35,081 nt of DNA from Solirubrobacterales bacterium (GTDB taxonomy: Bacteria > Actinomycetota > Thermoleophilia > Solirubrobacterales > Solirubrobacteraceae). Shown here piece after piece: positions 1,582 through 34,966 of the stretch; within the stretch, counting starts at the first letter, position 1, and every line of letters starts with the position of its first letter. The translations under genes and the position numbers were made by a program. The DNA lies in NCBI GenBank assembly GCA_013815355.1, contig JACDGG010000011.1:1-35081 (forward strand), read 5' to 3'. Below the pieces are notes generated by a model. The model saw nothing but the letters and a program-made list of their open reading frames with translations. It did no database searches and was not told where the DNA came from.

Positions 1582-3074
1582 GCACCACGGAGAAGCAGCC
1601 GCGTCGTGGGCCCGGGCCGCGTGGCTGGCCAGGCCGTGGGCGTGGCAGCGCGATGTACGTGCAGGCCGCGGATGAGTGGCGCGCGACGACCGTGCAGGCA
1701 TGCGGGATGTGGCCGTTCGCGGCGGGGACGGGCTCACCGATGGTCGGCGTCCCACTCGGCCGCAACATCCTCTCAGGCGCCACCCTCTGCGCCGATCCGA
1801 TCTCCTGGTTTCAGCACGCGAACCTGATCAGCAACCCGAGCTGCTTCTTCCTCTCAAAGCCAGGGTTGGGCAAGTCGACGGTCGTGCGGCGGATGGCGCT
1901 CGGCCTGATGGGCTACGGCGTGATGCCCTTGGTGCTCGGCGACCTGAAGCCCGACTACGTCGACCTGATCAAGGCCGCCGACGGGCAGGTGATAGAGCTC
2001 GGCCGCGGCCGCGGCCGGCTGAACATCCTCGACCCCGGCGAGGCAACCAGCGCAGCATCACGCCTAACCGGCAAGGCCCGCGAAGAGGTCCTCGCCGACG
2101 CCAGGGGACGCCGCCACACGATGGTCTGCGCGCTGATCACGATCCTGCGCTCCTCCCCCCCAAGCGACCGCGAGGAGGCAATCCTCGACCGCGCCGTGCG
2201 ACTCCTGGACGACCACCACGAGGGCGTACCGATCCTCAGAGACCTAATCGAGCTGATCGAGGCGGCGCCCGAGGATCTGCGCCAGGTAGCGATGGACCGT
2301 GAGGACCTGGAGCGCTACCGCGATGTGACCGAAGACCTGCTCGTCACGCTCAAGGGGCTGCTCGGCACCGGACGGGTGGGAGAGATGTTCTCCGCCCCCA
2401 CCACGACGCCGATGCGCCGCGACTGCCCCGTCGTGTTCGACGTCTCCTCGATCGATGACAGCGACCTGGCGCTGCAAGGCGCGGTCCTGATGGCGTGCTG
2501 GTCCTACGGCTTCGGCGCGGTGAAGGTAGCCAACGCGCTCGCCGACGCCGGTCTTGAGCCGCGCCGGCACTACTTCGTGATCCTCGACGAGCTCTGGCGC
2601 GCGCTGCGCGCCGGACAGGGCATGGTCGACCGCGTAGACGGCCTGACGAGATTGAACCGTCAGCGCGGCGTCGGCACAGCGATGATTTCCCACACCATGA
2701 GCGACCTGCAGGCGCTCCCAAGCGAAGCCGACCGGATGAAGGCCCGGGGCTTTGTGGAGCGCTCGGGGATGGTCATCTGCGGTGGCCTCCCGGCGGCTGA
2801 GATGCCGATGCTCACACAGGTCGTGCCGTTCAGCCAGGCCGAGCAAGACATGCTGATCGGCTGGCAGGACCCGCCCGCATGGGACTCCCAGGCGGGCAGG
2901 GAGACCGCTCCCCCCGGCCGCGGGAACTTCCTGATCAAGGTCGGTGGCAGGCCGGGGATCCCGGTGCATGTCGCGCTGACGAACCTCGAGCGGAGCTTGA
3001 ACGACACGAACAAGCTGTGGCATGAGACGAGCCGCATAAGCGCCGCGCTAGACCATGCGGCCGTCCCGTCGTGA
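1578..3074 (+). CDS. VirB4/TraC-like conjugation ATPase
   Basis: Motor ATPase expected to energise the type IV secretion channel at the inner face of the membrane. The 498-residue protein has a Walker A motif SKPGLGKST at about residues 93-101 and a Walker B-like HYFVILDELW at about 331-340. A later segment reading GVGTAMISHTMSDLQALP resembles the sensor/arginine-finger region of HerA/VirB4 ATPases. It is shorter than full VirB4 (about 800 residues), as expected because the N-terminal VirB4 part corresponds to the separate SCO6880-like protein upstream. The GTG start overlaps the preceding stop (GTGA), implying translational coupling. No transmembrane segment is evident. Confidence 0.8.
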   Translation: MSTTEKQPRRGPGPRGWPGRGRGSAMYVQAADEWRATTVQACGMWPFAAGTGSPMVGVPLGRNILSGATLCADPISWFQHANLISNPSCFFLSKPGLGKSTVVRRMALGLMGYGVMPLVLGDLKPDYVDLIKAADGQVIELGRGRGRLNILDPGEATSAASRLTGKAREEVLADARGRRHTMVCALITILRSSPPSDREEAILDRAVRLLDDHHEGVPILRDLIELIEAAPEDLRQVAMDREDLERYRDVTEDLLVTLKGLLGTGRVGEMFSAPTTTPMRRDCPVVFDVSSIDDSDLALQGAVLMACWSYGFGAVKVANALADAGLEPRRHYFVILDELWRALRAGQGMVDRVDGLTRLNRQRGVGTAMISHTMSDLQALPSEADRMKARGFVERSGMVICGGLPAAEMPMLTQVVPFSQAEQDMLIGWQDPPAWDSQAGRETAPPGRGNFLIKVGGRPGIPVHVALTNLERSLNDTNKLWHETSRISAALDHAAVPS

Positions 3075-4888
3075 CCGCCACCTCCCGGCGCTCCGGCGGG
3101 CCAGGTACGCAAGCCGAGACAGTCGTAGTGCTCACGATCGTCGCCGTCGTGGTCCTCGTCGTGGGTGCGATCACGGTGGCGGCTCACATCGCCGTCGCGA
3201 TCGGGCCCAGAACCGAGCAGCTGCCGGCCAACCCCTTTGACCTCGTGTTCGGCCTAGTGCGCGGGACCGTGCGCTGGCCGGCGGACGGGACCGTGGTCCT
3301 GGCCGCCATGGGCGCCTTGCTGTTGCTCGCCGGCGGGGGCGTGCTCGCCGGGCTGCTGCGGTGGCGTGGCAAGCGCTCGCGGGTGGACCGTGCCGCACGG
3401 CACATGGGCCGCGGGCGGGACCTCGCCGCACTCAGACGCAAGAGCGCCGCCAGCGAGGCGGCGCGTCTGGGTGTCGCCACCCCTGGTCTGCCGATCGCGC
3501 GCGCCCTCGCCGGCGGCGAGCTGCTCTACCAGGGCTGGGAGGACGTCGCCGTGGACATCTGGGGGCCCCGGGTGGGTAAGAGCACAGCCCGCGCGATCCC
3601 AGCGATCCTCGACGCTCCCGGCGCGGTGCTGGCGACATCGAACAAGCGTGATCTCGTCGACGGCACGCGCGGCCCACGCAGCAACCAGGGAGAGGTCTGG
3701 GTGTTCGACCCGCAACAGATCGTGCAGGAGCCCCCTGGCTGGTGGTGGAACCCCCTCAGCTACGTGCTCGACGAGGTGAAGGCGGCGATCCTCGCCGACG
3801 TGTTCGCATCGGCCAGCCGCGACCCATCCGCGCGCACCGACGCGTACTTCGAGCCAGCCGCGCAGGACCTCCTCGCCAGCCTGCTGCTCGCGGCCGCGAG
3901 CGCAGACAGGTCGCTGACACAGGTCTACCTGTGGCTGACCGACCCGACCGAGGACGAGCCGGTGGGGATCCTCCGCGAGCACGATTACCCCCTCTTGGCG
4001 GCGGGCCTGCAGGAGGTCGTAAACGCGCCGGAGAAGCAGCGCGCCGGCGTCTACGGGACAGCCAAGCAGATCGCGGCGTTCATGACCAACCGCCAAGCGA
4101 TGCGCTGGGTCACACCCGGCGCCGACACCGCCCGACGGGCGGGGAACCCCTGGCTGAGCGCGACCCAACGGCGCGAGTTCTCACCAGAAGAGTTCGTGCG
4201 CGGCTCAGGGACCCTCTACAGCCTCTCCAAGGAGGGACGCGGCACCGCCGGACCACTCGTTACAGCACTGACGGTGGCCGTGACGGAGGCCGCGGAGGAC
4301 TACGCCAAGCGCTCCCCCCGCGGACGGCTGCCCGTCCCCCTGGTAGCGGTGCTCGACGAGGCCGCGAACGTGTGCCGCTGGCGGGAGCTGCCGAACCTCT
4401 ACAGCCACTACGGCTCGAGGGGCATCTGCATCATGACGATCCTGCAATCCTGGTCCCAAGGCGTCGAAGTGTGGGGCCGCGAGGGGATGCGCAAGCTCTG
4501 GTCAGCCGCAAACGTAAAGGTCTACGGCGGCGGCGTCTCAGAGGTCGAGTTCCTCACAGAGCTCTCCCAGCTGATCGGCGACTACGACCTCAGCACACGC
4601 ACCATCTCAAACGGCAAGGGCGGACGCTCCACAAGCCACGCGACACGACGCGAGCGAATCCTCGAGGTAGCAGACCTCGGCGCGCTACCCAGAGGCCGCG
4701 TCGTCGTGCTCGCCTCTGGCGTCCCCCCCACCCTCGCTCGCTCGCTGCCCTGGATGACCGGCCCACGCTCGGCCGAAGTCATCGACTCGATCCGGCGATA
4801 CGACCCCGGCGCAGACGCGACGATCAACTCAGCGATGCAAACGCTCGCCGAGCACGACGGCACAGCCGAGGAAGACCAAGCATCGTGA
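3071..4888 (+). CDS. TraG/VirD4-family type IV coupling protein
   Basis: Coupling ATPase that delivers the relaxase-DNA complex to the secretion channel. The 605-residue protein starts with two hydrophobic helices (about residues 18-45 and 75-97), a typical VirD4 membrane anchor. It then has Walker A WGPRVGKST at about 163-171 and Walker B VPLVAVLDEAAN at about 422-433. The downstream stretch with YGSRGICIMTILQSWSQG matches the TraM-recognition/TraG C-terminal pattern. Start GTG 3071 overlaps the upstream stop by four bases (GTGA). Its stop in turn overlaps the GTG of the DUF4913 gene. No relaxase gene is visible in the window, so the substrate is assumed to be encoded elsewhere. Confidence 0.88.
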   Translation: MTATSRRSGGPGTQAETVVVLTIVAVVVLVVGAITVAAHIAVAIGPRTEQLPANPFDLVFGLVRGTVRWPADGTVVLAAMGALLLLAGGGVLAGLLRWRGKRSRVDRAARHMGRGRDLAALRRKSAASEAARLGVATPGLPIARALAGGELLYQGWEDVAVDIWGPRVGKSTARAIPAILDAPGAVLATSNKRDLVDGTRGPRSNQGEVWVFDPQQIVQEPPGWWWNPLSYVLDEVKAAILADVFASASRDPSARTDAYFEPAAQDLLASLLLAAASADRSLTQVYLWLTDPTEDEPVGILREHDYPLLAAGLQEVVNAPEKQRAGVYGTAKQIAAFMTNRQAMRWVTPGADTARRAGNPWLSATQRREFSPEEFVRGSGTLYSLSKEGRGTAGPLVTALTVAVTEAAEDYAKRSPRGRLPVPLVAVLDEAANVCRWRELPNLYSHYGSRGICIMTILQSWSQGVEVWGREGMRKLWSAANVKVYGGGVSEVEFLTELSQLIGDYDLSTRTISNGKGGRSTSHATRRERILEVADLGALPRGRVVVLASGVPPTLARSLPWMTGPRSAEVIDSIRRYDPGADATINSAMQTLAEHDGTAEEDQAS

Positions 4889-6046: not shown

Positions 6047-6646
6047 TCAGAGCCCGACCCGGGACTGGCGGTAGACGCGTAGCCGTTCGATTGCCTCCTC
6101 GACCGTGAGTGCATAAGCGAGTGCGTGGAACATCTCGCTCAGGTTCGTCTCCACCGGCGCAGGCTCGCCGCTGGCATCGCGCCTGTCCGCCAGCCCCTGG
6201 ATCACCCCCTCGAGCTGGGCCTCGATCTGCGGCTTCAGTCGGAGGTTGAACATGCGACTTGCGCCGGCCCTCTTCGGCGTAACGGTGGCTGCGGGCGTCG
6301 CAGTGCTCGCAGCCGTCCCACCGCCGTGCGGCGCCGCATGGTGATCGCTTGGCTCGGCTCGGCCATTCTGCGCCTCTCTCCTCTGTGCGCCGGCTTGGGA
6401 ATCGGCGTCTCGCAACTTCGCAGCAGCTGGACCGACCATCGCTCTGCTGTCCTGCGCTGTCGCGGCACGCTGCTTGGCGCCAGCGCCTGGCTTTGTAGGT
6501 ACGTCCGTACCTACAGGTGTCTCTACGGGCCGACTAGTGGGTGGCTCATCTCGAGGCGGCGGAGCTAGTCGGTCCTCCTCACCCTCGCGTCGACGGCGAC
6601 CCATGCCGGGGGCGCGTCTGCTGAGTTGCATCGTCGGTTCAGGCAT
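6047..6646 (-). CDS. ParA-linked small protein, candidate centromere-binding partner
   Basis: A 199-residue protein whose ATG overlaps the end of parA by eight bases (ATGCCTGA), so the two are one operon. The first 125 residues are basic, Ala/Pro/Arg-rich and probably disordered. The last 70 form a compact segment beginning MFNLRLKPQIEAQLEGVIQG and ending with predicted helices around VEEAIERLRVYRQ. The sequence after MFNLRL could be a ribbon-helix-helix-type DNA-binding fold, common in ParA partners that lack a ParB domain. I do not recognise the family. A 20-bp palindrome (6495-6514) that also occurs upstream of parA lies inside this gene. Confidence 0.6.
   Translation of the reverse strand: MPEPTMQLSRRAPGMGRRRREGEEDRLAPPPRDEPPTSRPVETPVGTDVPTKPGAGAKQRAATAQDSRAMVGPAAAKLRDADSQAGAQRREAQNGRAEPSDHHAAPHGGGTAASTATPAATVTPKRAGASRMFNLRLKPQIEAQLEGVIQGLADRRDASGEPAPVETNLSEMFHALAYALTVEEAIERLRVYRQSRVGL
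6495..6514. repeat. 20-bp GTAC palindrome, copy inside the parA partner gene
   Basis: GTAGGTAC-GTCC-GTACCTAC, perfect 8-bp arms around four bases. With its flanks (TTT before, A after) it matches the copy at 7861-7880 at all positions except the three at the centre. The two sites flank the parA gene. Confidence 0.7.
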
Positions 6647-7448
6647 GGATGGCCACCTCCTCCGTCAGCCACTTGGCCACTCGCCGGTAGGCCAGCGCCA
6701 CGCGGGTGTCGGGCTCGAGCAGGACGGTCGGCATTGAAAAGCGCGGGGCTCTGCCGACGCCGACAGCAAACGGGATGTGCTGCGGGATCACCCTCATGTC
6801 GGCGCTCTCAGCGGTGAGCACGGTCTCTTTGGCGAGCTTCCACTTGGCGCCCTCCTGTGTCACGAGGAGGCCGAGCACGCGAAGGTTGGGGTTGAAATCC
6901 GCGTAGCTGCCGCCGTCGACAAGCTCGTAGAGCTCCTCGGAGCCATCCATGTCCAGGTCGGCCGGCCTCGTGGGGATCACCAGGTAGTCGGCTGCGATGA
7001 TCGCCAAGGCGCTCATCGGCTGGGTTCCTGGCGGAGCGTCGATGAGGATGTAGTCGTAGTGCTCGCGCAAGAGCGCCACGGCGTTTCGTAGGCGTAGCTC
7101 GGCGTCCTCGGCGCGCGCTACGCCCAGCGCAACCTCGGCGAGATCCCCGCTGCAGGGGATCAGATGTACCCCCCCTGCGAGTGGGATCTGCTCCTTGGTC
7201 TGCGGATCGGCGCGTTCGGTCACCACCGATGGTGCCTTGCTGAGATCGCCGACGACGATGACGTCCTCTAGTCGCGTTCCTGGGGCGTCTCGGGCGCCAA
7301 AGAGCTGCGTGAGGTGACCTTGCGGATCAGCGTCGATCCCCAGCACTCGAAAACCGTCGCTCGTCAGCGCAACCATCAGGTTGGCTGTACTCGTGGTCTT
7401 GGCCGTCCCGCCCTTGTTGTTGGCGAACACGATGGTCGAGGCTGTCAA
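6639..7448 (-). CDS. parA: ParA-family partition ATPase
   Basis: Walker-type ATPase of plasmid/chromosome partition that moves DNA-bound partner complexes. The 269-residue protein has the deviant Walker A motif NKGGTAKTT at residues 11-19 and the ParA signature DADPQGHLTQLFGA at about 40-53. A later DYILIDAPPGTQPMS (about 140) is the Walker B/A' region. The start is TTG 7448, chosen because AAGGAGGT lies five bases upstream; no better start exists. There is no N-terminal HTH extension, so it resembles short (type Ib/Soj-like) ParA. It is followed by the small partner gene and faces away from the ParB at 7979. Palindromic repeats fill the region upstream and probably serve as operator and/or centromere. 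Confidence 0.92.
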   Translation of the reverse strand: MTASTIVFANNKGGTAKTTSTANLMVALTSDGFRVLGIDADPQGHLTQLFGARDAPGTRLEDVIVVGDLSKAPSVVTERADPQTKEQIPLAGGVHLIPCSGDLAEVALGVARAEDAELRLRNAVALLREHYDYILIDAPPGTQPMSALAIIAADYLVIPTRPADLDMDGSEELYELVDGGSYADFNPNLRVLGLLVTQEGAKWKLAKETVLTAESADMRVIPQHIPFAVGVGRAPRFSMPTVLLEPDTRVALAYRRVAKWLTEEVAIHA

Positions 7449-7880: not shown

Positions 7881-7926
7881 AATTTGACTGCTGAGGCGCC
7901 CGTTGCGCGGCGAGCCGGTGCGTGCA

Positions 7927-7946
7927 AGCGTGTCACGTGACACGCT
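7927..7946. promoter_or_regulatory. parS-like 20-bp perfect palindrome before parB
   Basis: AGCGTGTCACGTGACACGCT is its own reverse complement. Its core TCACGTGA is the core of the canonical bacterial parS site (TGTTTCACGTGAAACA); 12 of the 16 aligned bases match, with different flanking bases. It sits 33 bases upstream of the ParB ATG. It is a likely loading site and/or operator for that ParB. Binding is inferred. Confidence 0.65.
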
Positions 7947-7978
7947 CTGATCCGACGTATGTGCTCAACTGCGAGTCC

Positions 7979-8812
7979 ATGAACGAGATCGACGCGCTGG
8001 CTCTGGATACGGGCGAGCTCCGGGAGCTCCCGGTCGGGCTGATCCACCGCAACCCGCGTCAGCCGCGGACCCACTTTGATCCCGAGAAGCTGGACGAGCT
8101 CGCAGGATCGGTGGGGGAGAGGGGTGTGCTGCAGCCGGTGCTCGTGCGCCCGTTCGAGGGGGAGTTCCAGCTGGTGGCGGGAGAGCGGCGCTGGCGAGCC
8201 GCTTGTAAGGCCGGTCGAGCGACGGTTCCCGCTCTGATCAGGTCGGTAGACGATCAGACCGCTCTCGAGCTCGCGCTGATCGAGAACATGGCACGCGAGG
8301 ATCTGAACCCGATCGAGGAGGCGAAGTCGGCTCAGGCCCTGTGTGCGCCGCCGTTTGGGCTGAGCAAGGCCGAGCTTGCGCGCCGCGCGGGCTGCTCCCG
8401 CGCCTCGCTCAGCCACAAGGTCCGCCTGCTCGAGCTGCCTGACCAAGTTCAGGCGCTCCTCGAGGAGAAGAAGCTCAGCGAGGGGCACGGCCGCGCGCTG
8501 CTGCTGTGCGCCGATCACGACGAGCGCCGGCGGCTGGCGCGTCAGGCTGTGACGGCCGGCTGGTCAGTGCGCACGCTCGAACGCGCCGCGCGGACGGGAG
8601 CAGGCGAGCGCACAACTGCTGTGGGCCGAGCCGCCCCGAAGCATCCTGATCAGCTGGCTGTAGCCGAGGAGCTGCAGGATACGTTCGGGAGGGCGCTGGG
8701 ACGCGAGGTTTCCGTCGATCCGCTCGAGGCGGGCTATCGCGTGAGCGTGGTCGTCGCTGATCCGCTCGACGCGCGCGAGGTTCTGGATCGCCTTGATTCA
8801 TCGCCTCCCTGA
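7979..8812 (+). CDS. parB: ParB/Spo0J-family partition protein
   Basis: Centromere-binding CTPase-type ParB of 277 residues. The ATG at 7979 (MNEIDALAL) is preferred; an in-frame GTG at 7922 would run through the palindrome. It has box I (HRNPRQPRTHF, about residue 22), the CTP-binding arginine-rich motif GERRWRAA (about 68), and ENMAREDLNPIEEA (about 100). A helix-turn-helix follows around LSKAELARRAGCSRASLSHK, and then a C-terminal dimerisation-type domain. Canonical ParB length is about 280-300 residues, so it looks complete. It is divergent from parA rather than in its operon, and a parS-like palindrome lies directly upstream. Whether it or the small protein at 6047-6646 is the true ParA partner cannot be decided from sequence. 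Confidence 0.92.
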   Translation: MNEIDALALDTGELRELPVGLIHRNPRQPRTHFDPEKLDELAGSVGERGVLQPVLVRPFEGEFQLVAGERRWRAACKAGRATVPALIRSVDDQTALELALIENMAREDLNPIEEAKSAQALCAPPFGLSKAELARRAGCSRASLSHKVRLLELPDQVQALLEEKKLSEGHGRALLLCADHDERRRLARQAVTAGWSVRTLERAARTGAGERTTAVGRAAPKHPDQLAVAEELQDTFGRALGREVSVDPLEAGYRVSVVVADPLDAREVLDRLDSSPP

Positions 8813-20143: not shown

Positions 20144-21567
20144 GGTCGCGTCCCAGTTCCCGGGTGAATTGAGTCTGGGGTAGCTCCGCTTGGGGTGGAT
20201 GTTATGCGGCGATCACCTCCTCGGTGTTCGTCGTGGCTTGCGCGGCGTGACTGTCACGCAGTTGGCGACGCAGCCGTTCGATCTCGGCGACGGTCTTGGG
20301 GTTCATCTTCACGCCGCGCCAGCCGCGGCTTGAGAGCTCCAGCACCGCCCAGATGAGTGACAGGGCCGATGTCTCGCCGGGGAACCGGCCGATCACCTTG
20401 GTGCGCCTTCGGACCTCCACGAACGTGCGCTCGAGCAGGTTCGTGGTGCGGATCCTCTTGCGATGCTCGGAGGGGAACCGCAGGTGCGTGACGAGCGCCG
20501 GCAGGTCCGTTTCGATGACGGCCATCGCGGAGGGATATGCGGTCTTGTAGTCGGCGATGATGCCCTGCAGCTCGCGGCTGGCCTCTCCCGGGGAGCGGGC
20601 CTGATCGAATGCTTTCCACCAGCGTGCCTTGACCTCTTGGTGGTGGCGCTCGGGCAGCTTGCTGGTCACGTTCCGCAGGGCGTGCACGGTGCAGCGCTGC
20701 TCGAGCGCGTCGGGCCAGAGCTCCTTGGTTGCCTTCCAGATCCCAGGTGCCCCGTCGGCGATCACGAGTGCCGGGGCCCGCAGTCCCCTGGCGGTCATGT
20801 CACGGCCGAACGCGAGCCACGAGTCGTAGCTCTCGCGGCTGCCTAGGGCCAGGCCGAGCAGGACCTTTCGGCCCTCCAGGGTGACGCCCCAGCACACAAG
20901 GACGCCCTCCGCGGGCTGATCCTCGGGGCGCAGCTTCAGATAGATCGCGTCCAGGAAGCAGTAGACGATGTCGTGCTCTGAAAGGCTGCGCCGGCACCAC
21001 TGGCGGTATCTCTCGCGGGTGTCCTCGCAGATCCTTGAGACCGTCGACCTGGACGCGATCGGCTCCTCAAAGACCTCCTCCAACGCGGCCTCGACGTCCC
21101 GGGTGGACAGGCCCCGCAGGAAACTGCTGATCACCAACGACTCCAGCGCGTGCGTGCGCACGACACCCTTTCCGAGCACCCGGCTCTCAAAGCCGAGCTT
21201 GCCTGCGTCACGGACCCGAGGACGCTCCAAGTCCATCCGCCCGCTCGTCGTCTTGACCGTCTTCGGTTCATGGCCGTTGCGGTAGCTGACCGTCTCGGCG
21301 GTGCGCTCATAGCGGCGGCGGCCAAGGAACTCCGTGACCTCGTCCTCCAGCGCCTGCTGCAAGATCAGCCTCGCTCCCAGCCGGCCGACCACCTCCACCG
21401 GGTCGTGCTCCTCACCGACACCGGCCAGCACCTCATCCAGCTCGCGGCGAAACCTCTCGCTCGGGGCTACCTTCTCCATGCGGGCGTACCTCCATCTTCG
21501 ACTTGTTCAGGGTCAAAGCGGAGGCTACGCCCGCAACATCAAATCCCCCGGCTCATGAGACGCGACC
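20144..21567 (-). mobile_element. Complete IS256-family insertion sequence, 1424 bp
   Basis: The element is bounded by an 8-bp direct repeat (GGCAGGCG). Its imperfect terminal inverted repeats are about 50 bp. The left end reads GGTCGCGTCCCAGTTCCCGG and the right end (complement) reads GGTCGCGTCTCATGAGCCGG. Both continue with a GGATTTGA/GAATTGA segment and a GTAGC-TCCGCTT motif. One transposase gene fills it. It interrupts the DUF4326 gene. The perfect duplication and the precise restoration of the frame on removal indicate simple transposition with little later rearrangement. Confidence 0.9.
20202..21479 (-). CDS. IS256-family (mutator-type) transposase
   Basis: 425-residue DDE transposase. 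Catalytic residues visible are D177 (YCFLDAIYLKLR), D242 (LVIADGAPGIWKA) and E350 (RTTNLLERTFVEVRRR), with the family CxxH motif CTVHALRNV at about 263. The N-terminal FLGRRRYERTAET, then YRNGHEPKTVKTTSG, is typical. Length is normal (about 400-420) and no frameshift is seen, so it is probably active. Start ATG 21479 lies about 90 bases inside the right end. Confidence 0.95.
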   Translation of the reverse strand: MEKVAPSERFRRELDEVLAGVGEEHDPVEVVGRLGARLILQQALEDEVTEFLGRRRYERTAETVSYRNGHEPKTVKTTSGRMDLERPRVRDAGKLGFESRVLGKGVVRTHALESLVISSFLRGLSTRDVEAALEEVFEEPIASRSTVSRICEDTRERYRQWCRRSLSEHDIVYCFLDAIYLKLRPEDQPAEGVLVCWGVTLEGRKVLLGLALGSRESYDSWLAFGRDMTARGLRAPALVIADGAPGIWKATKELWPDALEQRCTVHALRNVTSKLPERHHQEVKARWWKAFDQARSPGEASRELQGIIADYKTAYPSAMAVIETDLPALVTHLRFPSEHRKRIRTTNLLERTFVEVRRRTKVIGRFPGETSALSLIWAVLELSSRGWRGVKMNPKTVAEIERLRRQLRDSHAAQATTNTEEVIAA

Positions 21568-23298: not shown

Positions 23299-24669
23299 CT
23301 ATGCGGCGAGAAGCTCGTCCTCCTCGACGCCGGCGTCGTCCTCGAGGCCTTCGAGGTCCTCAGCGCCAGCGGGCGAACCCGGGGCGCTGCTTTCGGCTTT
23401 GACGAGCTGCGCCTGGCGCTCGCCATGGGCCTTTGCCTCTGCCTTGATCGCGCGCTGCAGGTCCTTGTGAGAGGCCGGCAGCACGTCCTTGACGAGACGC
23501 TCGAACGCTTTGAGCGCGATCCCCTTGCGTGAGGCTGGCAGTGCTGAGCGCTGGCGCTTGCTGGCGGGCAGGACGAGGTCCTGCGCGTAGTGCTGTGCCG
23601 CGAAGACGACGAGCACACGGCCGTAGAGCTCTCCGGGGGTGCGGGCGCCCTCGACGAACTTCCACAGCCACTTCGCGGCGTCCTCTGGTTCGCCGTAGGT
23701 GACCTTCGTCTTGCCGGGGCCGCCGCTCTTTAGCCGCGGAGTCACGGTGCTGCGGTGCTCGTCAAAGACGAGGCGGATCCCGTTCGCGGCGATCGTCAGC
23801 GCCCGATGGTCGCTGCCTCCGAGATAGTTGGTGGTGTCCGGGCCGAGCACGCCCCAGGCGAAGAACCTCGCGACGTCCATGTCGCCGGGGTCGACCGTGG
23901 CGAGCTGGTTGAGCAGCGCGGAGCCGAGGTCGAGGTTGGTGGTGTGCGCGCGGCGGGTGAGCTCCCGCACAGACGCCCTGTGCTCCGCTTCGAGCTGCTG
24001 CTGCGGGGTCCGCTCGGCCTGGCCTTTCCCCCGCCGGCTCGCGCGGTCGGCCTCGGCGGCGTCCTTGGCGGCCTTCAGCTCGTCGCGGGTGCGAGCGATC
24101 GCCTGCTTGATGAGCTCGCGGTACAGCGCACGGTCGGTGATGACGGGGTTGCCGTGCTCGAACTCGATCAGGACACCGGCGGCGCGGGCTTGGTCTACTT
24201 CGATCTCGCCGAAGCGAACCGTCGGTGGCCCGTAGGCGTACCTGTCCAGCTGCTTGTGCAGCTCCTCGGCTTCCGTGTAGGCCGCGGTGGCCTTCTTACC
24301 GAGACGCAGCCCTTCGATTTCGCCGGCGTGAGCGGTGCTGAGGTAGGCACCGAACGTGCTGGTGGTGTTGCGCAGCGCGTGGCCGATCGCCCAGGCGGGG
24401 TCACGGACGAACTGCGACCCCGAGATCTCGCCCGCGGCGACCGCGGTGAGCGCACCCTCGCACAGCTCGCGTGAGACGCCTGCGATCTGCAGCATCATCT
24501 CGACGCTGCTGACGGGCAGCTCGCCGCTGTCAAGCAGACGCTGGGCGGTCTCGGGGAGCTCGAGGATCTTCGCCCGGGCGGTGACAAGTGCTCGGGTACA
24601 GCCGAGTGCTGATGCGGCGCCGTCGGGGGTGTAGCCCTCGCTGAACATGTAAGCGACCGCGCGCGCCTC
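23299..24669 (-). pseudogene. C-terminal part of a split plasmid ParB-like gene
   Basis: The frame begins inside a ParB domain: SEARAVAYMFSEGYTPDG is the end of the ParB nuclease-like domain. The ParB helix-turn-helix AASALGCTRALVTARAKILE, then LPETAQRLLDSGELPVSSV, follows, and then a long plasmid-type C-domain. Nothing upstream in frame encodes the missing N-terminal domain. Instead the sequence runs into the recombinase cassette at about 24670. The missing domain is found at 28930-29244 in the same orientation. An internal ATG (24648) could still give a 449-residue protein lacking the ParB/CTPase domain. It is acidic at the C-terminus (EDLEGLEDDAGVEEDELL). Confidence 0.82.
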
Positions 24670-24780
24670 GGAACTGGCGCAGGTGCGTTATTCGAACCGT
24701 GTGGTATGAGCTGGCGGAAGGAGGATGGCTGGTGGGCAGTGGGGACGAAATCGACCCGCGAGCAGCGTCGGTCTCACGGT

Positions 24781-24846
24781 CCGCGCCCAAACTGTGAAGC
24801 GGAGCCGAGCCCGTAGGGCGAGGGGAGCTGAGGGGTTTGGGCGCGG
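24781..24846. other. Long inverted repeat near the left end of the cassette
   Basis: CCGCGCCCAAAC (24781-24792) and its exact complement GTTTGGGCGCGG (24835-24846) enclose 42 bases with an inner AGCCC-GTA-GGGC stem. It lies downstream of the zinc-ribbon gene. It could be its terminator, a subterminal recombination signal or a structured RNA. The remainder of 24670-24913 has no gene. Confidence 0.55.
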
Positions 24847-24913
24847 GTGCGTCTTGTTGGCCCCCGGTCGGTCATCCTCAGATAGGACGCCTGTCGCTGA
24901 GCGCGACGGGTCC

Positions 24914-27241
24914 TTATTGGCTTCGTAGCGCTGGGTAGTCGCCCCAGGGTCGCCCTGCGATTTCTGCCCACTGGGTGGCGGTGCTGATGTGGACGCCGAG
25001 TAGGTCGGCGAGGATCGCGGCGGGGAGTTGGCCTGCGAGCTGCAGCAGTGCGGCGCGACGCGCGTCGTTGCAGTCGATGCCGATGCGTTTCATGCGGCGG
25101 CTGAGCGCGAGCGCGCCGATCGGGCGCGACGGAGCGTTGCCGGGGAACAGCCACAAGGGATGCCGGACGATCCCGGATGATGGCTTGGCGAGTTCGCTCA
25201 GTAGCTTGCGAACATCGCTGGCGATCGGTTTCGGGACGGTAAGCGCGGTGTCGCCGAGCTGGATCGCGACGGTCTGCTCCTCAAGGGTGATGTCGTCGGC
25301 TGTGAGTCGCGCGACACGGGTGACGGGTTGGGCGAACACAGCGATGAGGATCCCGGCGACTCGGTCGCGGACGGAGATCTGTTGGTCGTTGAGCAGCCGC
25401 TGGACGAGCTCGCCCAGGTCTTGGTCGATGATGGGCTGGGAAGGGCCGCCGCGCTCGCCCACTGGGAAGTCGAGCTTTGGCATGAGCTTCCGAGCGATCG
25501 CCCAGCGGGCGAAGGACCTGGCGATGTATCGGTCAGCGCGGGGACCCGCGAGCCACGCGTCGATATCGGATTGCTGGCAGGCGTCGAGCGGCCGGCCCCG
25601 GCCGGCGAGCCACTCGAGGAATGCACCAGCGCTTTGCAGCTCAACCTTGGCATGGCCCAGGACACCATCGTTGAGTGGCGCCCGCTGGCTCTTGCGTCGG
25701 TAGCGGCGCAGGATGACCCAGTGCGCGAACGTGCGGAGCGCCTGGTCATCGTCCTCGGCGCTGAAGAGCTCCTCGATCCACCGCTCTAGCCGGGCGAGTA
25801 CGGGGTCTCGAGCGGGTAGCGCGCCGGTGGCGACGAGGAGATGCTCGAGGCGCCGAACCGCGCCGTTTGAGGGATGACGATCGAGTGTCTCGTGAGTGCA
25901 GGGCAGCTCACCGCGGACGATCTGCCCCAGTAGCGGGACCGCCGGGCTGTTGCTCAGCCAGCGGATCATGTCCTTGGCTGAGCCGGCCGCGCTCAGCTCC
26001 TCGAATAGTCCGTTGAGCCCGAGCTCAACGCGACGTGGCTGGTCGCCGAGCAGCTCGATGAGGCGAGCGTGAAGGACGCAGCGTGCGCACAGATCGCGGC
26101 TATAGAGCGCCTCTTCTGCACCGCATCGCCCGCACACGTGATCGTGGGGGGCGCCGGCGCATTCGCGGCAGACTGGCTCCTCGAAGCCCGGATAGCGCAG
26201 CACCCGACGCGTCTGTCCGCACTGAGGGCACGAGCCTTTGGCTGAGAGCGCGCGGTGGTAGCAAGTACCGCAGACCGGGCCTTCGGGCCAATGGGCCGCT
26301 GGGCGTCGCGCGCGTCCGCAGTGCGAGCACGTCTGCGGTCTGACCGGCGCGCAAGCGCTGCAGAGCATTCGGCCGCGTCGCTCACCGCGGCACGGACGAA
26401 CCTGCCCGCAGCCCTCGCACGCGGCGGTTGGACCGGTCCAGCAGATCCCGCACAGGTCAGGATCGCCGTCGATGGCGAGGCGGACAATCACGCGCACCCG
26501 CCGGCAACCCCCGCAGGTCCCGACCGGCCGCTCGTAGCACCTCTCGCACCGTGGGTGACCCTGGCGGTCTCGGCCGATCGTTGGCTCCCCGCACTCGCCA
26601 CAGGGCTCCGACGCCGCGAGGGCACAGTGCGAGCACTGTGCCGGCGTGTCGCTAGCCGGGATCGCAGCCGTTTGCCCGCAACTCGCGCAGGTGGTGTGCG
26701 GGCGCTGCGCGCACTCAGAGCAAATCCGCTTGCGTGTTCGATAGCTGCGGTTCACGCCGCACACCGTGCAGCGGTGCACCGGGCGCACGTAGCTGCGGCC
26801 GTGGCAGGTCCCGCACAGCGGCAGACCATCAGCATCGCGGCTCGCGCGTCGCGCGAACTTCCCGCACCGTGAGCACGCCTCCGGTGGCCGGCGCCGGATC
26901 TGGCACGCGTTGCAGACCTGGCCTCCCGGCACGCGCCTGACGAGCGGCTTCGGTTCTCCGCAGTCCAGACAACGCGGCACCGCAAGGCCCTCGACACCCT
27001 CGGCGATCAGCCCGGTGATCAAGCGCGCGATCGGAGCCGGAGCGCCCGAGTCACCGTCCACGAGCGCCGTCGGATGCTCCACGAGATAGGCGGTGAACGC
27101 GTTTAGCCGCTCGGTTTTCTGCGCGACTCGCTCGATCGCGGCACGTGCGAGGACCGAGCTGACGTTCGGGTTCATGCGAGCGACCGTGTCGGCGGCCCGT
27201 GACAGCGCCTGCTCGGCGTTAGACGGGCGGATCTGCAGCAC
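24914..27241 (-). CDS. Ten-zinc-ribbon protein with degenerate tyrosine-recombinase-like C-terminus
   Basis: 775 residues from GTG 27241 with GGGAGA upstream. About residues 91-370 hold 20 CxxC knuckles arranged as ten zinc ribbons, each about 28 residues (examples: CLDCGEPKPLV...VCNAC, CSRCGKFARRA...LCGTC, CPQCGQTRRVL...VCREC). A helical linker follows. From about 600 to the end the protein looks like the catalytic half of a tyrosine recombinase: QPVTRVARLTADDI (Arg box), WLFPGNAPSRPIG, then DARRAALLQLAG and LGVHISTATQWAEIAG in place of LRHT...LGHSS..TT..Y. The His and Tyr of the active site appear to be missing (Val and Trp). It is probably a non-catalytic DNA-binding partner of the adjacent active recombinase, but this is inferred. 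Confidence 0.7.
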   Translation of the reverse strand: MLQIRPSNAEQALSRAADTVARMNPNVSSVLARAAIERVAQKTERLNAFTAYLVEHPTALVDGDSGAPAPIARLITGLIAEGVEGLAVPRCLDCGEPKPLVRRVPGGQVCNACQIRRRPPEACSRCGKFARRASRDADGLPLCGTCHGRSYVRPVHRCTVCGVNRSYRTRKRICSECAQRPHTTCASCGQTAAIPASDTPAQCSHCALAASEPCGECGEPTIGRDRQGHPRCERCYERPVGTCGGCRRVRVIVRLAIDGDPDLCGICWTGPTAACEGCGQVRPCRGERRGRMLCSACAPVRPQTCSHCGRARRPAAHWPEGPVCGTCYHRALSAKGSCPQCGQTRRVLRYPGFEEPVCRECAGAPHDHVCGRCGAEEALYSRDLCARCVLHARLIELLGDQPRRVELGLNGLFEELSAAGSAKDMIRWLSNSPAVPLLGQIVRGELPCTHETLDRHPSNGAVRRLEHLLVATGALPARDPVLARLERWIEELFSAEDDDQALRTFAHWVILRRYRRKSQRAPLNDGVLGHAKVELQSAGAFLEWLAGRGRPLDACQQSDIDAWLAGPRADRYIARSFARWAIARKLMPKLDFPVGERGGPSQPIIDQDLGELVQRLLNDQQISVRDRVAGILIAVFAQPVTRVARLTADDITLEEQTVAIQLGDTALTVPKPIASDVRKLLSELAKPSSGIVRHPLWLFPGNAPSRPIGALALSRRMKRIGIDCNDARRAALLQLAGQLPAAILADLLGVHISTATQWAEIAGRPWGDYPALRSQ

Positions 27242-27268
27242 CTATCGCGTCTCCCGGGTCGACGCCCC

Positions 27269-27622
27269 TCACGCCGCTGGTGGCTTGTCAGGATCCACGA
27301 TCCGGGCGCGCACGGGACGCAGCCCGTCGCGCACCTTCCGCGTCGCGCGCTCGTCCGGGGACCCAGCGGCCTTGCGTTGCTGGCGGCGCTCGAGGACCGG
27401 CTCGATCAGCTCGCCGACGCTGCAATCGAGCAGGTCACACAACGCCGCGAGGGTGTAGACATTGAGCCGCTCGGGCTGCTGAGTCACGAGCCGGTAGACC
27501 TGCTCGCGGGAGAGCTCGACGCCACGCTCGGCCAGCGGGGCGATCAGGTCCGTCGTCGAGAACATGCCGCGTGTCGCCATCACCTCCCGCAGGTGCCAGC
27601 GAACGCCCATCTTGCGAGTCAC
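27269..27622 (-). CDS. XRE-type small DNA-binding protein of the cassette
   Basis: 117 residues. GTG 27622 overlaps the recombinase stop (GTGA). The helix-turn-helix lies at residues 15-65: REVMATRGMFSTTDLIAPLA, then LSREQVYRLVTQQPERLNVY and TLAALCDLLDCSVGELIEP. This is the Cro/CI pattern of the YozG/small XRE type. The C-terminal third is basic and Pro-rich. By analogy with tnpC or excisionase-like partners it may control direction or expression of the element. A homologue occurs in the second cassette (33505-33831). Confidence 0.8.
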   Translation of the reverse strand: MTRKMGVRWHLREVMATRGMFSTTDLIAPLAERGVELSREQVYRLVTQQPERLNVYTLAALCDLLDCSVGELIEPVLERRQQRKAAGSPDERATRKVRDGLRPVRARIVDPDKPPAA

Positions 27623-28737
27623 GAAGCCACCCCGAACGCTCCTCCGAGCGCCCGCGCGAGCACCCGGTTCTTGTAGTCGTCAGACACGCCGGTGTAGATC
27701 GCCGTCGTCGCCGCATACGCATGGCCGACTTGGTCGGTCACGAACCGCTCGGGAAAGCCCGCCTCGATCAGATGCGTCACATACGAATGGCGCAGGCAAT
27801 GCAGGTCGAGCTCGACCGGTAGCCCCGCGCCCTCGCGATAGCTCGCAAACCGGGCGTTGACGTGCCTCGCCGACACGCGCCCGCGACGCTCGGTCATCCA
27901 CAACGCCGGATGGCGCCCGGGATCAAACCCGTCGCGGACCTCCCCGACATACTGACGCAAGGCCTCCACCGCCCAATCATGCACCGATAGCACCGTGCGG
28001 CGCTTCGGGGGACTACCCCGCGAGGCCTTCCCATAACGCACATGCAGCGCCCCGCAGGAGCCGAACTGAGGCGCCTTTGCGTTGCGATGCAGATCAGCGA
28101 TGTCGAGCATCACCGCCTCTCGGCGACGCAACCCCCACGCGTAGACGACCTTGAACATGGTCGCGTCCCTGAATGCCGCCAGCGTCCCCTTCCTGCCGTT
28201 TCCCGCGACACGGTCGACCTGGTCATCGGCGAAGTCGAAGAACCGCTGCAGCTCCTCGCGCGTCAACGCGCGGCGCCCCGGGCGGCCCTCGAACTCGCTC
28301 ACGTGTGCCGCCGTGTTCCACTCGTGGCAGATCAAAGCCGGCGCCTGCCCGAACCGCTCCTCACACTCCGCCACCCACCCGTACCGCGCATCGCACACGA
28401 AGTCACCGAACAACCCAAGGATGTGGTGGTAGCCGCGGATCGTCGAGTGCGCCCTCCCACCCGACCGCAGCGACGTCGTGAACGCCTCGACATCCTGCGC
28501 TCGCCAAGACCACGGGTATTCATTCGTGAACTCCGCGAACCGTCGAACCAGCCGATCCCGCCCAACGACCGTCACCTCGTTCAACATCCGGCTTCGCTGC
28601 TGAGCACCCCAGCCAGCGAGCATCCCGTCGAACATCGCCCGCGTCGGATCGAGCTCCGCGACGCCCTGAGCGAGCACCAGATGCGCCGCCCCGACCGCAT
28701 CCACGCGGCTACCCACAGGCCAAACCAAGATCCACAC
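27619..28737 (-). CDS. Tyrosine recombinase (integrase/transposase) of the first cassette
   Basis: 372 residues with a complete catalytic set: Arg in WGLRRREAVML (about 205), Lys in HVRYGKASRG (237), H313 and R316 in LHCLRHSYVTHL, H339 in DQVGHAYAATTAIY, and the nucleophile Y348. The SAM-like N-terminal DNA-binding domain spans about 55-145. The start is GTG 28737; no strong ribosome site was seen, and alternatives exist near MFDGMLAGW. Similarity to the second-copy protein begins near GVAELDPTRAMFDGMLAGW. It should catalyse strand exchange for this cassette, and it overlaps the XRE gene by four bases. Confidence 0.9.
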   Translation of the reverse strand: MWILVWPVGSRVDAVGAAHLVLAQGVAELDPTRAMFDGMLAGWGAQQRSRMLNEVTVVGRDRLVRRFAEFTNEYPWSWRAQDVEAFTTSLRSGGRAHSTIRGYHHILGLFGDFVCDARYGWVAECEERFGQAPALICHEWNTAAHVSEFEGRPGRRALTREELQRFFDFADDQVDRVAGNGRKGTLAAFRDATMFKVVYAWGLRRREAVMLDIADLHRNAKAPQFGSCGALHVRYGKASRGSPPKRRTVLSVHDWAVEALRQYVGEVRDGFDPGRHPALWMTERRGRVSARHVNARFASYREGAGLPVELDLHCLRHSYVTHLIEAGFPERFVTDQVGHAYAATTAIYTGVSDDYKNRVLARALGGAFGVAS

Positions 28738-28745
28738 TCACACCC

Positions 28746-28779
28746 ACAATGTTGCATACTCACCACAACAATGTTGCAT
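28746..28779. repeat. Direct repeat upstream of the first-cassette recombinase
   Basis: ACAATGTTGCAT occurs at 28746-28757 and again at 28768-28779, spaced 22 bases. It is AT-richer than its surroundings and lies just upstream of the recombinase start. It is likely an operator for the XRE protein or an accessory site for recombination. The rest of 28780-28929 has no gene. Confidence 0.5.
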
Positions 28780-28929
28780 CTGATCCAGAGGGCTCAGCCG
28801 AAAGCCCGCCATTGCAAGAGAATCCCGCGACCTAGCCGGAGCCCTTCGACGACACGACATCGGCCACAACAACGCGCGATCCCATCCGCCGAGCACGCCG
28901 AATGATGCATCCAAAGCCATAGTGCCCGG

Positions 28930-29244
28930 TTCAAGAGGTGAAAGTCCCTTGCGAAGGATATTCTCGGCAGCCGTATCCGCACTCGTGGCGTCCTGCTCAC
29001 GCGAAGACGCGGGGATCTCCTTGATACCCAGCTTGCGGCACGCCGCGAGCCGGTGATACCCGGCGACCAGGGTGAAACGCTCCCCATTGGGACGCAGGGT
29101 GATGGGGTTGATCAGGCCGCGAAGCGTGATCGAGCCAGCCAAGGCGTCGACGTGCGCTTGGTCGAGCTCGCGGACGTTCGCGTCATCGACGTCGATCAGG
29201 TCGATGTGCACGTGCTCGGGCGTGAGGATTGCGGTGGCGTTCAT
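28930..29244 (-). pseudogene. N-terminal part of the split plasmid ParB-like gene
   Basis: From ATG 29244 (GGAAGG site upstream), 105 codons encode a ParB nuclease-like domain: IDVDDANVRELDQAHVDALA, then SITLRGLINPITLRPNGE, the CTP-motif region VAGYHRLAACRKLGIKEIP, and AENILRKGLSPLE. The last Glu codon is 28930-28932. After it the frame runs into cassette sequence (PGTMALDASF) and ends at 28738. Joined to the frame at 24669, the product would be ENILRKGLSPLE+EARAVAYM, a normal ParB sequence of about 561 residues. The separated halves would give a free domain and an N-terminally truncated protein. Confidence 0.85.
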
Positions 29245-31363: not shown

Positions 31364-31588
31364 CTAGAGAAGGCGGCGTAGCTGGCTGGGGTCTAGGCCT
31401 GCGTCGTTGAGGATGCCGGAGAGGGTGCCGCGCTTGAGCTCGCGGTGCAGCGGCACGGTGAGGGAGCTTGGGCGGGCGGGGTGCTTCATTCGGACGTGGC
31501 TGCCGCGCTGGCGTGCGAGCTGCCAGCCGGTTCGTTCGAGCGCTTTGACGAGCTGGCGGCCTGAGAGGACCGGGAGTCCCTCGCTCAC
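31364..31588 (-). CDS. hicA: HicA-family mRNA interferase toxin
   Basis: 74 residues. SGRQLVKALERTGWQLARQR followed by the catalytic GSHVRMKHP (His) and LTVPLHRELKRGTLSGILND is the HicA double-stranded RNA-binding-like fold. GTG 31588 overlaps the hicB stop (GTGA). Order hicB-hicA; the toxin appears intact. Confidence 0.9.
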   Translation of the reverse strand: MSEGLPVLSGRQLVKALERTGWQLARQRGSHVRMKHPARPSSLTVPLHRELKRGTLSGILNDAGLDPSQLRRLL

Positions 31589-31809
31589 GCGGGGACCGGG
31601 AACCGTCGGCGGATCACGCCGGTGCTGAGAGGGCGTCCTTCTTCGCGGAGGCCCTCGACGTAGAGCTCGAGGGCCTCTTGAGCGTTGGTGGCGGCCTGCT
31701 CCAGCGTGTCGCCCTGGGTGTGCAAGCCCGGCAGGTCGGGCGCGTAGACGTGGTAGCCACCCTCATGCTGGGGGGCGAAGATGAGCTCGATCTCCTGCGG
31801 CTGAGCCAT
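31585..31809 (-). CDS. hicB: HicB-family antitoxin
   Basis: 74 residues with the HicB partial RNase H-like fold: ELIFAPQHEGGYHVYAPDLP, then GLHTQGDTLEQAATNAQEAL and ELYVEGLREEGRPLS. There is no C-terminal DNA-binding domain, so any repressor activity would need another protein. Start ATG 31809. It pairs with HicA. Confidence 0.9.
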   Translation of the reverse strand: MAQPQEIELIFAPQHEGGYHVYAPDLPGLHTQGDTLEQAATNAQEALELYVEGLREEGRPLSTGVIRRRFPVPA

Positions 31810-31837: not shown

Positions 31838-33508
31838 CTAGGCGGCGTGGGAGGGGTTTGAGGTTCTAGCGCGCAGCGCGGCGTACTCGGCGTATGTGGC
31901 GCCGGCGGCGCGGGCCCACTGTGCGGCGCGTGCTTGGTGGACGCCGAGGCGCTCGGCGAGTATCGGCGCCGGCAAACGGGCAGCGAGCGCGAGCAATGCT
32001 CCCTGGCGTCCTGAACGGCCGGTGATGCCGTAGCGCGCCAGTCGCCGCAGCAGCTGCTCGGGGCTGATGTGAGTCCCGGCGTTGCGTCCGGGGAACAGCC
32101 ACTGGCTTGTGCCCGCGCCGCGGTGTAGCTCGAGCGCGATACGTGCCAGCGGGTCGGGAAGCGCTACTACACCCCGGGCGAGCGTGATCCCGACGGATCG
32201 GTCGGTTTCGTGCAGGTCGCTGATGGTTAGCCTGGCGGTGCGGGTGAGGGGTTGGGCGTAGAGCAGCAGCAGGCTCCCTGCGAGCCGGTCGCGGGCGTCG
32301 ATCTCCTCGCCGTGCAGCAGCGTGCGCAAGATCTCAAAGCGCTCGAGCTCACCCAGGGGCCTAACGTGTTCGCCGACCTCATGCCAGGCGACGTGCAGCG
32401 TGGCGGTGCTGCTGGTGCGGGCGAGCCATGCCAGGAACAGTCGCACTCGTCTGCGTGCCCCGGCGCCTTCGCTTATCCACTCATCGGTGAGGTCTTGGCG
32501 CAGATCGCTCAGCTTCAGCTCTTGAGCGTGAAGCCAACACGTGAGGCCGATCGCCTCGCTGAGCAGCGAGCGCGCATACTTCGCTGGCGCGCTGCCGGTC
32601 TTGCCTGCGCGGACGCTCAGCGCGAGCCGGGGAGCGAGATGCCAGTTGGCGTAGGCACGCACGAGCGCTCGGTCAGGACCGTCCTGTAGGGCGCTGGTGG
32701 CGTCCTGTGCCCAGCGCGAGAACGCAGCGGTGATCTCGTCACGCTCAGGCAGGGCGTGCTCGTGGACCAGCGCGGCGCGAACAAACGCGATAGCCCCGGA
32801 ACCGTGCGTGGTCTCGATCGCCCCGTCCAGCGCCTCGTGGGTGAGCGCGACCCTTCCAGTCAAGAGATCCTCCAGGAGAAGGCGAGTCGGGGTTTGCAGC
32901 CAGCGCAGCATCGAGTCAGCGTTCTTGGCGGCAGCGAGCGCATCGAGATACGGCGCGAGCGCCGCGACCGCGACTGGGTCTGCGCCGTCGCGAAGGCGTT
33001 GGATGCGTAGCGCGAGCCGACACCGCGAGCAACGCCCAGTGACCAGCGCCGCCAGGGCGTGACAGTCGCTGCAGTCTCCATCGCCGCCGCCTTTCTCGCG
33101 ATCACATGCCTTGCAGATCGGGCCTGTTGAGAGCCGTCGATAGACGAGGCGTTTCTCTGCGCAGCAGGCGCACTTCACCAGCGGCCTGGCCACGCAGCTG
33201 AGGCACAACGGCCTTGAGCTACTCGCATAGCGGCACGGCTTGACGCGACCGCAGCTGCTGCAGGATCGTTCAGGAGGCCGGTAGCAGCAGCGTCCGAGCG
33301 CTGGCTGCCCGCCGCTCGCTTTGCGAATCAGCCGGCTGGTTTTGCCGCAGACCCCGCAACGCCCCGTTGGCTTAGGAGCGCAGCTTCTGCACATATCCGG
33401 CTGCCCGTCGCGGGCGCGGCGCTCGATCGCCAAGACGCGCCCGCAGACGCCGCAGGGGCGCCTGGGCTGATCGGCACGGCCGCGAGCCGGCCGGCGAGCC
33501 TTGCTCAC
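31838..33508 (-). CDS. Five-zinc-ribbon protein with degenerate recombinase-like C-terminus (second cassette)
   Basis: 556 residues; GTG 33508 overlaps the XRE stop (GTGA). Residues about 20-165 carry five zinc ribbons (CGVCGRVLAIE...CRSC, CGVCGKTSRL..., CSSCGRVKPC...CLSC, CACCAEKRLV...CKAC, CSDCHALAA...CSRC); the second ribbon has GRCC in place of a clean CxxC. The C-terminal part mirrors the first cassette: QPLTRTARLTISDLHETDRS, then WLFPGRNAGTHISPEQLLRR, GRQGALLALAARLPAPILAE and RLGVHQARAAQWARAAG. It likewise has no visible catalytic His or Tyr. It has half as many ribbons as the homologue at 24914-27241. Confidence 0.7.
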   Translation of the reverse strand: MSKARRPARGRADQPRRPCGVCGRVLAIERRARDGQPDMCRSCAPKPTGRCGVCGKTSRLIRKASGGQPALGRCCYRPPERSCSSCGRVKPCRYASSSRPLCLSCVARPLVKCACCAEKRLVYRRLSTGPICKACDREKGGGDGDCSDCHALAALVTGRCSRCRLALRIQRLRDGADPVAVAALAPYLDALAAAKNADSMLRWLQTPTRLLLEDLLTGRVALTHEALDGAIETTHGSGAIAFVRAALVHEHALPERDEITAAFSRWAQDATSALQDGPDRALVRAYANWHLAPRLALSVRAGKTGSAPAKYARSLLSEAIGLTCWLHAQELKLSDLRQDLTDEWISEGAGARRRVRLFLAWLARTSSTATLHVAWHEVGEHVRPLGELERFEILRTLLHGEEIDARDRLAGSLLLLYAQPLTRTARLTISDLHETDRSVGITLARGVVALPDPLARIALELHRGAGTSQWLFPGRNAGTHISPEQLLRRLARYGITGRSGRQGALLALAARLPAPILAERLGVHQARAAQWARAAGATYAEYAALRARTSNPSHAA

Positions 33509-33831
33509 GAGCGCCCGCCCGGGCGGCGAAGACGCACCTGCTTGGGTTCAAGCGCCTTGTCGATCGTGGTGCTGCTCGCCGGGTCCATCGCGATCGGCGC
33601 CGCGAGCTCGCTGCGGCGCACGAGCTCGCCAGGCTCGCAGGCGAGGATCTCACAGAGCACCATCAGCACCCGGAGATTCAGGCGCTCCGGGCGGCCGGTG
33701 ACCAGCCGCCAGACCTGCGAGTCCGACAGGCGTATGCCGTGCTCGGCGAGCCTGGGTGCGAGCTCGTTCGCCTTGAACATGCCGCGCTCTGCCATCAGCA
33801 CCCGCAGGCGCCACTCGTAGTCCACGCTCAT
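33505..33831 (-). CDS. XRE-type small DNA-binding protein (second cassette)
   Basis: 108 residues, helix-turn-helix in VLMAERGMFKANELAPRLAE, then IRLSDSQVWRLVTGRPERLN and LRVLMVLCEILACEPGELV. It is a homologue of 27269-27622 over the first about 75 residues, with a different basic tail. ATG 33831 overlaps the recombinase stop (ATGA). Confidence 0.8.
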   Translation of the reverse strand: MSVDYEWRLRVLMAERGMFKANELAPRLAEHGIRLSDSQVWRLVTGRPERLNLRVLMVLCEILACEPGELVRRSELAAPIAMDPASSTTIDKALEPKQVRLRRPGGRS

Positions 33832-34966
33832 CGCACGGCCGCGAGCTCTGCGAGCTGCTCGTCGATCGCGGCCCTGACCAGACGGTCCTTGAAGTCATCG
33901 CCGACCGATAGGTAGATCGCTGTTGTAGCGGCGTGGCTGTGGCCGACCTGATCCTGGATGAACTGCGCGGCCCACCCCTGCTCAGCCAGATGCGTCACAT
34001 AGCTGTGACGCAAACAGTGCGGGGTCAGCTGCTGCGGAAGGCCTGCTTCGTCGCGGATCTCAGCGAAGCGCTCGTTGATGTAGCCGACCGCGATCCGGGT
34101 GCCGCGCTCGGTCAAGAACACCGCCGGATGCTCTGGGCAGCCGAAGCTCGGACGGATCTCGCTCACGTACTGCTCGATAACCTCGACCGCCCAATCGAAC
34201 ACTGTCAGCACGGTGCGACGCTGCGGTCCACCGCCACGCTTCGCCTTGCCGTAGCGAACGTGCACCTGGCCATAGGCGCCGAACTCGGGCAGCTTGCCCG
34301 CCGGACGGAAGTCACAGATGTCGAGCATCGCGACCTCCGCGCGACGCAGACCCCACGCGAACTTGACCTTGAACAACGCCTGGTCACGCCACGCCTGCAA
34401 AGACCCCTTGCGCCCCCGCGCCCGGCACGCCGCGATGCGCGCCTCGCACGCACCGAAGAACGCCTCCAGCTCGTCCACCGTCAACGGGCGCCGGCGCGGG
34501 TCGCCCTCGAAGTCGTCCAGATGCGCAACGAGGTTGCGCTCACCGAACAGCTGGCCAGGGCCGCGGCCGAACTCACGCTCACAGATCACCGACCACGGAT
34601 AGCGATGGTCACACGCATACTCGGAGAACCCCTTCAGCCGCTGCTGGTAGGTGCGAAGCGTCGAGCGCGCCAGTCGCTGCGGCGCGCCAGCAGATCCTCG
34701 AAATACTCATCGGCGTGCGAGGCGCGCCACTCCCACGGCCAACAACCCGTGTGCTCAACGAACGCTCGCACACCCGTCTCGTTCGCGCGGATCGACTTGG
34801 GCTTGCAATAGCGCGCCGTCTGCTGGCTACGCCAGCCCGCCAGCATCGCGTCGAACAGCGCCCGCTCGAGATGCAACGGACGGACACCCACCCCAAAGAC
34901 CCGCGCCAGCGCACCGTCGACGTCCTGCGTCGAGTAGACACCATGCGGGCTCAACAAGCTCTGCAT
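33828..34966 (-). pseudogene. Tyrosine recombinase of the second cassette, frameshifted
   Basis: The N-terminal part (ATG 34966 to the stop at 34634) ends ASHADEYFEDLLARRSDW and then goes out of frame. From about 34680, in the neighbouring frame, the protein continues ARSTLRTYQQRLKGFSEYAC, then DHRYPWSVICEREFG. The catalytic domain to 33828 follows. In that part R (WGLRRAEVAML), K (HVRYGKAKRG), H and R (PHCLRHSYVTH), H (DQVGHSHAATTAIY) and the nucleophilic Y are all present. The total of 1139 bases is one short of 380 codons (copy 1: 372 residues), consistent with a single one-base deletion. The unshifted C-terminal part could be expressed from an internal start at 34589. Confidence 0.8.

Follow-up and report, generated by a model that had tools for sequence, protein, structure and literature searches.

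A probable small transposon with a tyrosine recombinase and a predicted inactive partner interrupts a ParB-like gene in Solirubrobacterales

Results

A 4,260-bp element interrupts a ParB-like gene

The window, which is the whole 35,081-nucleotide stretch of DNA analysed here, is contig C203 of a 3.2-Mb genome assembled in 305 contigs. An integrated element was observed at positions 24670..28929 of the (-) strand; it has the same orientation as the ParB-like gene that it splits. We infer with high confidence that this block is a small transposon whose own tyrosine recombinase moves it. The N-terminal part of the interrupted gene (28930..29244, (-)) contains a ParB_N domain (Pfam E 8e-10) and is matched by homologues. 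The C-terminal part (23299..24669, (-)) is also matched by homologues (44-66%) and shows a weak HTH_ParB match (E 2e-4, just under the cut-off). The two parts are both open and in frame, carry no further lesion, and fuse into a protein of 561 residues (...ENILRKGLSPLE/EARAVAYM..., where the slash marks the junction), which reads ...ENILRKGLSPLEEARAVAYM... across the junction. All 14 junction-spanning uninterrupted homologues, which are drawn from the window's own GTDB genus and family and share 65% to 42% identity, align without gaps at residues 98-116, with no extra or missing sequence at the junction. These alignments bear out the earlier note, which had read the block as an interruption of one ParB-like gene and had proposed intact homologues of the joined protein of about 561 residues as the check. 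The informative homologues belong to genomes of the same family; a search of the joined protein against plasmids and phages returned partial matches only (~27-36%).

The site was also defined at the nucleotide level. In the empty-site alignment with two same-genus copies (L011 and L046, both from one genome), the left-flank match ends with CTTGA and the right-flank match starts at GAGGCGC. The window junction is CTTGA(A)/GAGG, and neither duplication nor loss of target bases was observed (±1 base). The split frames, the ungapped homologues and this alignment place both boundaries to within one base, so the earlier limits and the absence of a target duplication are correct to about that precision. 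The insertion point falls in the conserved ParB motif RKxLxPxEEA. The reading frame of the N-terminal half of the parB-like gene extends past the junction and yields a 168-aa fusion (28738-29244, (-)), whose TGA stop codon adjoins the GTG start codon of the recombinase gene; translation of the recombinase could therefore be coupled to that of parB.

A homologous parB-like gene in another genome (G069) is split twice. The first split (L043, G069:C1:36000-42500) is made by a RIT-like tyrosine recombinase trio located 8 codons upstream of the site used in the window. The second split (L116/L117) lies near residue 452-456, with ~21 kb between the pieces. The parB-like gene thus tolerates insertions.

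The interrupted gene is a second ParB-like gene on the contig

A separate ParA and a canonical ParB are encoded 15-22 kb from the broken gene. The genes for a TraG/TraD-type coupling protein and for ParA with the canonical ParB lie at 3071-4888 (+), 6639-7448 (-) and 7922-8812 (+), which suggests that the contig could represent a plasmid or an integrative (conjugative) element. Given this separate pair, the broken 561-aa gene is a second ParB-like gene and its interruption does not imply loss of partition. The description of the target as a plasmid maintenance gene is therefore right in that the gene is parB-like, but overstated.

A diverged and decayed second copy of the gene triad, with P0006, an XRE gene and a frameshifted recombinase gene whose product is ~51% identical, occupies 31838..34936 (-). 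This decayed cassette adjoins a HicA/HicB toxin-antitoxin pair (31364-31809, (-)), and a Mutator-type (Transposase_mut) transposase gene is present at 20202-21479 (-). Scanning for Rfam families and tRNA genes gave no match in the window, and PADLOC gave no defence match.

One catalytic recombinase and a predicted inactive one

The element comprises three genes. P0001 (27619..28737, (-)) is a tyrosine recombinase of 372 aa, identified by a Phage_integrase match (E 1e-19) and by alignment. Its catalytic set is complete (R204, K237, H313, R316, H339 and Y348), and these residues are invariant among 34 aligned relatives. P0002 (27269..27622, (-)) is a small XRE/HTH_26 protein of 117 aa (HTH_26 E 5.6e-16). 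P0003 (24914..27241, (-)) is a protein of 775 aa with N-terminal zinc ribbons, recognised by Cys pairs, many of which are invariant in the alignment of its family. No Pfam domain match was found for this protein. In the AlphaFold model, residues 498-772 are built mostly at high confidence and adopt a tyrosine-recombinase fold. The modelled C-terminus resembles XerH (Foldseek E 2e-4, prob 1.0) as well as XerA, Cre and lambda integrase, and residues 497-775 compared with VIA give a Z of ~14. The aligned P0003 relatives have no catalytic Tyr and retain little of the rest of the catalytic set. The C-terminus of P0003 is thus predicted to be a catalytically dead tyrosine-recombinase fold, and P0001 is the only catalytic protein of the three. 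A profile comparison of the P0003 and P0001 families with hhalign detected no similarity (prob 0.2%), so the recombinase assignment of P0003 rests on the predicted fold. The recombinase, XRE and zinc-ribbon genes are those that the earlier note had listed, with the C-terminal fold of the last as an addition.

Ends of the element

The int-proximal end (28896..28931, (-)) contains the subterminal sequence GGATGCATCA, for which alignment of the ends over relatives gives the family consensus GAATTGCATCAGATGCAACA. The family motif at this subterminal position is AATTGCATCAGATGCAAC, and the window copy carries a diverged form. Two copies of (G/T)ATGCAACATTGT directly precede the recombinase start (28750..28780, (-)) and are candidate operators; the sites in front of the recombinase gene are of the GATGCAACA type. 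The int-distal end (24670..24700, (-)) is CGGTTCGAATAACGCACCTGCGCCAGTTCC, which by eye is similar to the sister-clade end CAGTTCCAATATCTGACGTCACCATT. The window copy thus combines the fixed-order triad with a subterminal end of the (A)ATTGCATC type, the motif being diverged, and its ends sit where the end alignment places those of the family. The GAACYGG inverted ends that had been pointed out exist, with 6/7 matching bases. They were rejected as evidence, since ~8% of random ends would match as well by chance (P about 0.08) and the match lies partly in flanking sequence.

A transposon family of Actinomycetota

Relatives of P0001, with up to 64% identity, were found at 43 genome loci and on many plasmids, chiefly of Actinomycetota. 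In nearly all loci that are long enough (most of the 43, as well as many plasmids), the recombinase gene is followed in the same order by the XRE gene and the gene for the zinc-ribbon, inactive recombinase. This recurrence identifies the triad as one mobile unit, and its occurrence with defined ends at many sites strongly supports the recombinase as the agent of insertion, as had been proposed. The family is rare in the class of the window (3/399 genomes). Apart from the decayed relative, the genome contains no further copy of the element, and the closest relative of the window copy elsewhere is 62-64% identical; a search of a viral collection returned one distant relative. Several contigs of about the element's length stop at the element ends (among them L076, 4171 bp, and L083, 4122 bp), which is consistent with collapsed multicopy repeats. 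Four copies (L079, L085, L086 and L090) contain ~0.6-0.8 kb of extra DNA between the third gene and the distal end, possibly cargo.

Relatives of the window copy outside the sister clade described below lie in or near other genes. In the family as a whole, two copies (L074 and L061) are, by eye, located within ISL3-like and Tn3-like transposase genes. On Rhodococcus and Pseudonocardia plasmids (L050-L056 and L125), a related cassette starts directly behind the stop codon of the recombinase gene that precedes it; in Rhodococcus, it seems to travel with this gene and a fifth gene.

A sister clade inserts at the catalytic-Tyr codon of recombinase genes

A sister clade is well supported, and the window copy falls outside it. 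Of the sister-clade copies, 20 have a resolved left end. In 19 of them the target is a tyrosine-recombinase gene, cut behind the catalytic Tyr codon at a distance of 3 nt (7 nt in a minority); the remaining target is, by eye, an ISL3-like transposase gene. Copies in recombinase genes were observed at L066, L067, L069, L070, L072, L073, L075, L079, L082, L086-L088, L090, L096, L097, L057-L060 and L127. The disrupted recombinases represent about 12 groups with <50% mutual identity, which indicates many separate insertions. In one strain, a near-identical element occupies two recombinase genes on two plasmids (L057 and L058). A hold-out of eight further plasmid loci was small and gave one usable copy, L127, the only one with a clear sister-clade end; it too cuts a recombinase gene, 3-7 nt past the Tyr codon.

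The displaced C-terminus was located past the distal end for seven recombinase targets (L059, L060, L067, L079, L082, L086 and L090), and intact full-length relatives of three joined targets occur on plasmids. Nucleotide alignment of both junctions with empty sites (L060 with L112, L082 with L114, L079 with L115) shows clean insertion; the alignment of L060 with pMSPYR101, for example, reads ...CTCTACGGC/TGGGTCC... The element supplies the interrupted recombinase with an in-frame tail, for example (N/K)xRELHQxGExxQVA*. In some cases the interrupted gene encodes the first member of a tandem short-plus-long recombinase pair, which is the arrangement of actinobacterial Tn554-like transposons (PMC3414803); these copies are nested in pairs of that type. 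A scan of 396 genomes of the phylum with the sister-end pattern returned one poor match.

The window target, CTTGA/GAGG in parB, is unlike the recombinase target of the sister clade and is not at a Tyr codon. Since the window copy lies outside this clade, its parB site counts as a single event.

Discussion

Relation to known elements and alternative explanations

In its mode of action the element resembles several known systems, yet each of these has at least one defining feature that it lacks. Tn554 and its actinobacterial relatives (Van Houdt et al. 2012, PMC3414803) provide the closest description: an ordinary recombinase accompanies an abnormally long recombinase-like protein, insertion is clean, and the elements are frequent on actinobacterial plasmids, all as observed here. 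The large partner in the window differs from this class in its zinc ribbons and dead active site, and an XRE protein is encoded between the two. The earlier note had assigned the element to the Tn554 type. A diverged Tn554 family member that moves in the Tn554 manner with a 6-bp footprint would account for a co-directional operon in which an ordinary recombinase is accompanied by a large protein and a small DNA-binding one, and for the duplication-free insertion shared by the window and three sister copies. However, PMC10214605 describes TnpA and TnpB of Tn554 as both catalytic (RHRY), whereas P0003 has no catalytic Tyr and the window element has one catalytic recombinase. The gene order here is int-xre-large. 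P0002, the candidate counterpart of the TnpC-type third protein, is an HTH_26/XRE protein. A P0003 homologue is absent from pBD2 and pRHL2, the two records of the PMC3414803 table that were tested, but present in three control plasmids. Carry-over of 6 bp predicts a TAYNNN footprint, which is not apparent at the right ends of the sister copies; their terminal bases vary and do not look like earlier left flanks. The Tn554-type assignment is therefore not supported, and membership of a diverged lineage in that family is unlikely.

Two further explanations concern the insertion itself. A cassette that is not itself mobile and was carried passively into parB, by homologous recombination or by another transposon, would agree with the decay of the second copy in the window. 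Such carriage leaves the scarless, precise junction, the recurrence of the triad, with defined ends, at many unrelated sites and the short contigs consistent with multicopy repeats unaccounted for, and we regard it as extremely improbable. Alternatively, the parB-like gene might be a dead remnant, or the contig an assembly chimera, in which case the split would be uninformative on targeting. The double split of the G069 homologue agrees with a gene that tolerates insertions; both halves in the window are open, in frame and otherwise undamaged, and the element ends at the positions expected for the family, unlike a chimera. This explanation is very improbable.

Other recombinase elements share part of the design. 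SE (strand-biased circularizing elements, PMC10214605) and GInts (PMC5385486) contain a recombinase-like protein without the full catalytic motif, Tfp and GinC, beside active recombinases. The combination of an incomplete recombinase-like protein with an active recombinase, a small protein and target specificity resembles the window element. SE and GInts are described with four core genes, two active recombinases and in other taxa, whereas the window element has three genes between its ends; the cited passages of the two papers mention no zinc-ribbon protein. RIT elements are likewise three-gene recombinase elements, but all three recombinases are catalytic, in contrast to P0001 alone here.

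Proposed mechanism

For a transposon moved by its own recombinase, the clean, duplication-free insertion and the complete P0001 point to site-specific recombination through a circle. P0001 would join the element ends into a circle and exchange this circle with a short target core. The circle junction would connect 24670 to 28929, bringing together GCGCCAGTTCC and CCGGGCACT. P0003 would bind DNA with its zinc ribbons and clamp it with its recombinase-like fold, but would not cleave it. An architectural or target-choosing role of this subunit is likely by analogy with the dead partners Tfp in SE and GinC in GInt, all four genes of the latter having been shown to be essential. P0002 is a putative repressor or directionality factor, which may bind the GATGCAACA sites at the end and at the promoter and control expression or direction.

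Implications

The open-access literature contains no description of the triad of recombinase, XRE and zinc-ribbon/inactive-recombinase genes or of its targets, and reports no transposon that sits in parB or at the catalytic codon of a recombinase gene; novelty is provisional, given that the search was limited to open access. On balance, we favour the view that an active tyrosine recombinase, a zinc-ribbon dead recombinase and an XRE protein define an undescribed family. One clade would home to the catalytic-Tyr codon of tyrosine-recombinase genes, keeping the Tyr and adding a new in-frame tail, and would thereby exploit the best conserved point of the mobile elements that it parasitises. The lineage in the window would have switched to the conserved motif in a ParB-like gene carried by a plasmid or ICE.

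The ends (to the base), the empty sites and the gene set are now defined for an actinobacterial family that belongs to none of the Tn554, SE, GInt and RIT types described so far. This raises the testable question of how a recombinase that is paired with a dead partner recognises a single catalytic codon in a dozen divergent recombinase families. Inteins and group I introns spread by insertion into conserved motifs. Insertion into conserved motifs of mobile-element genes would be a spreading strategy of the same kind, used here through site-specific recombination.
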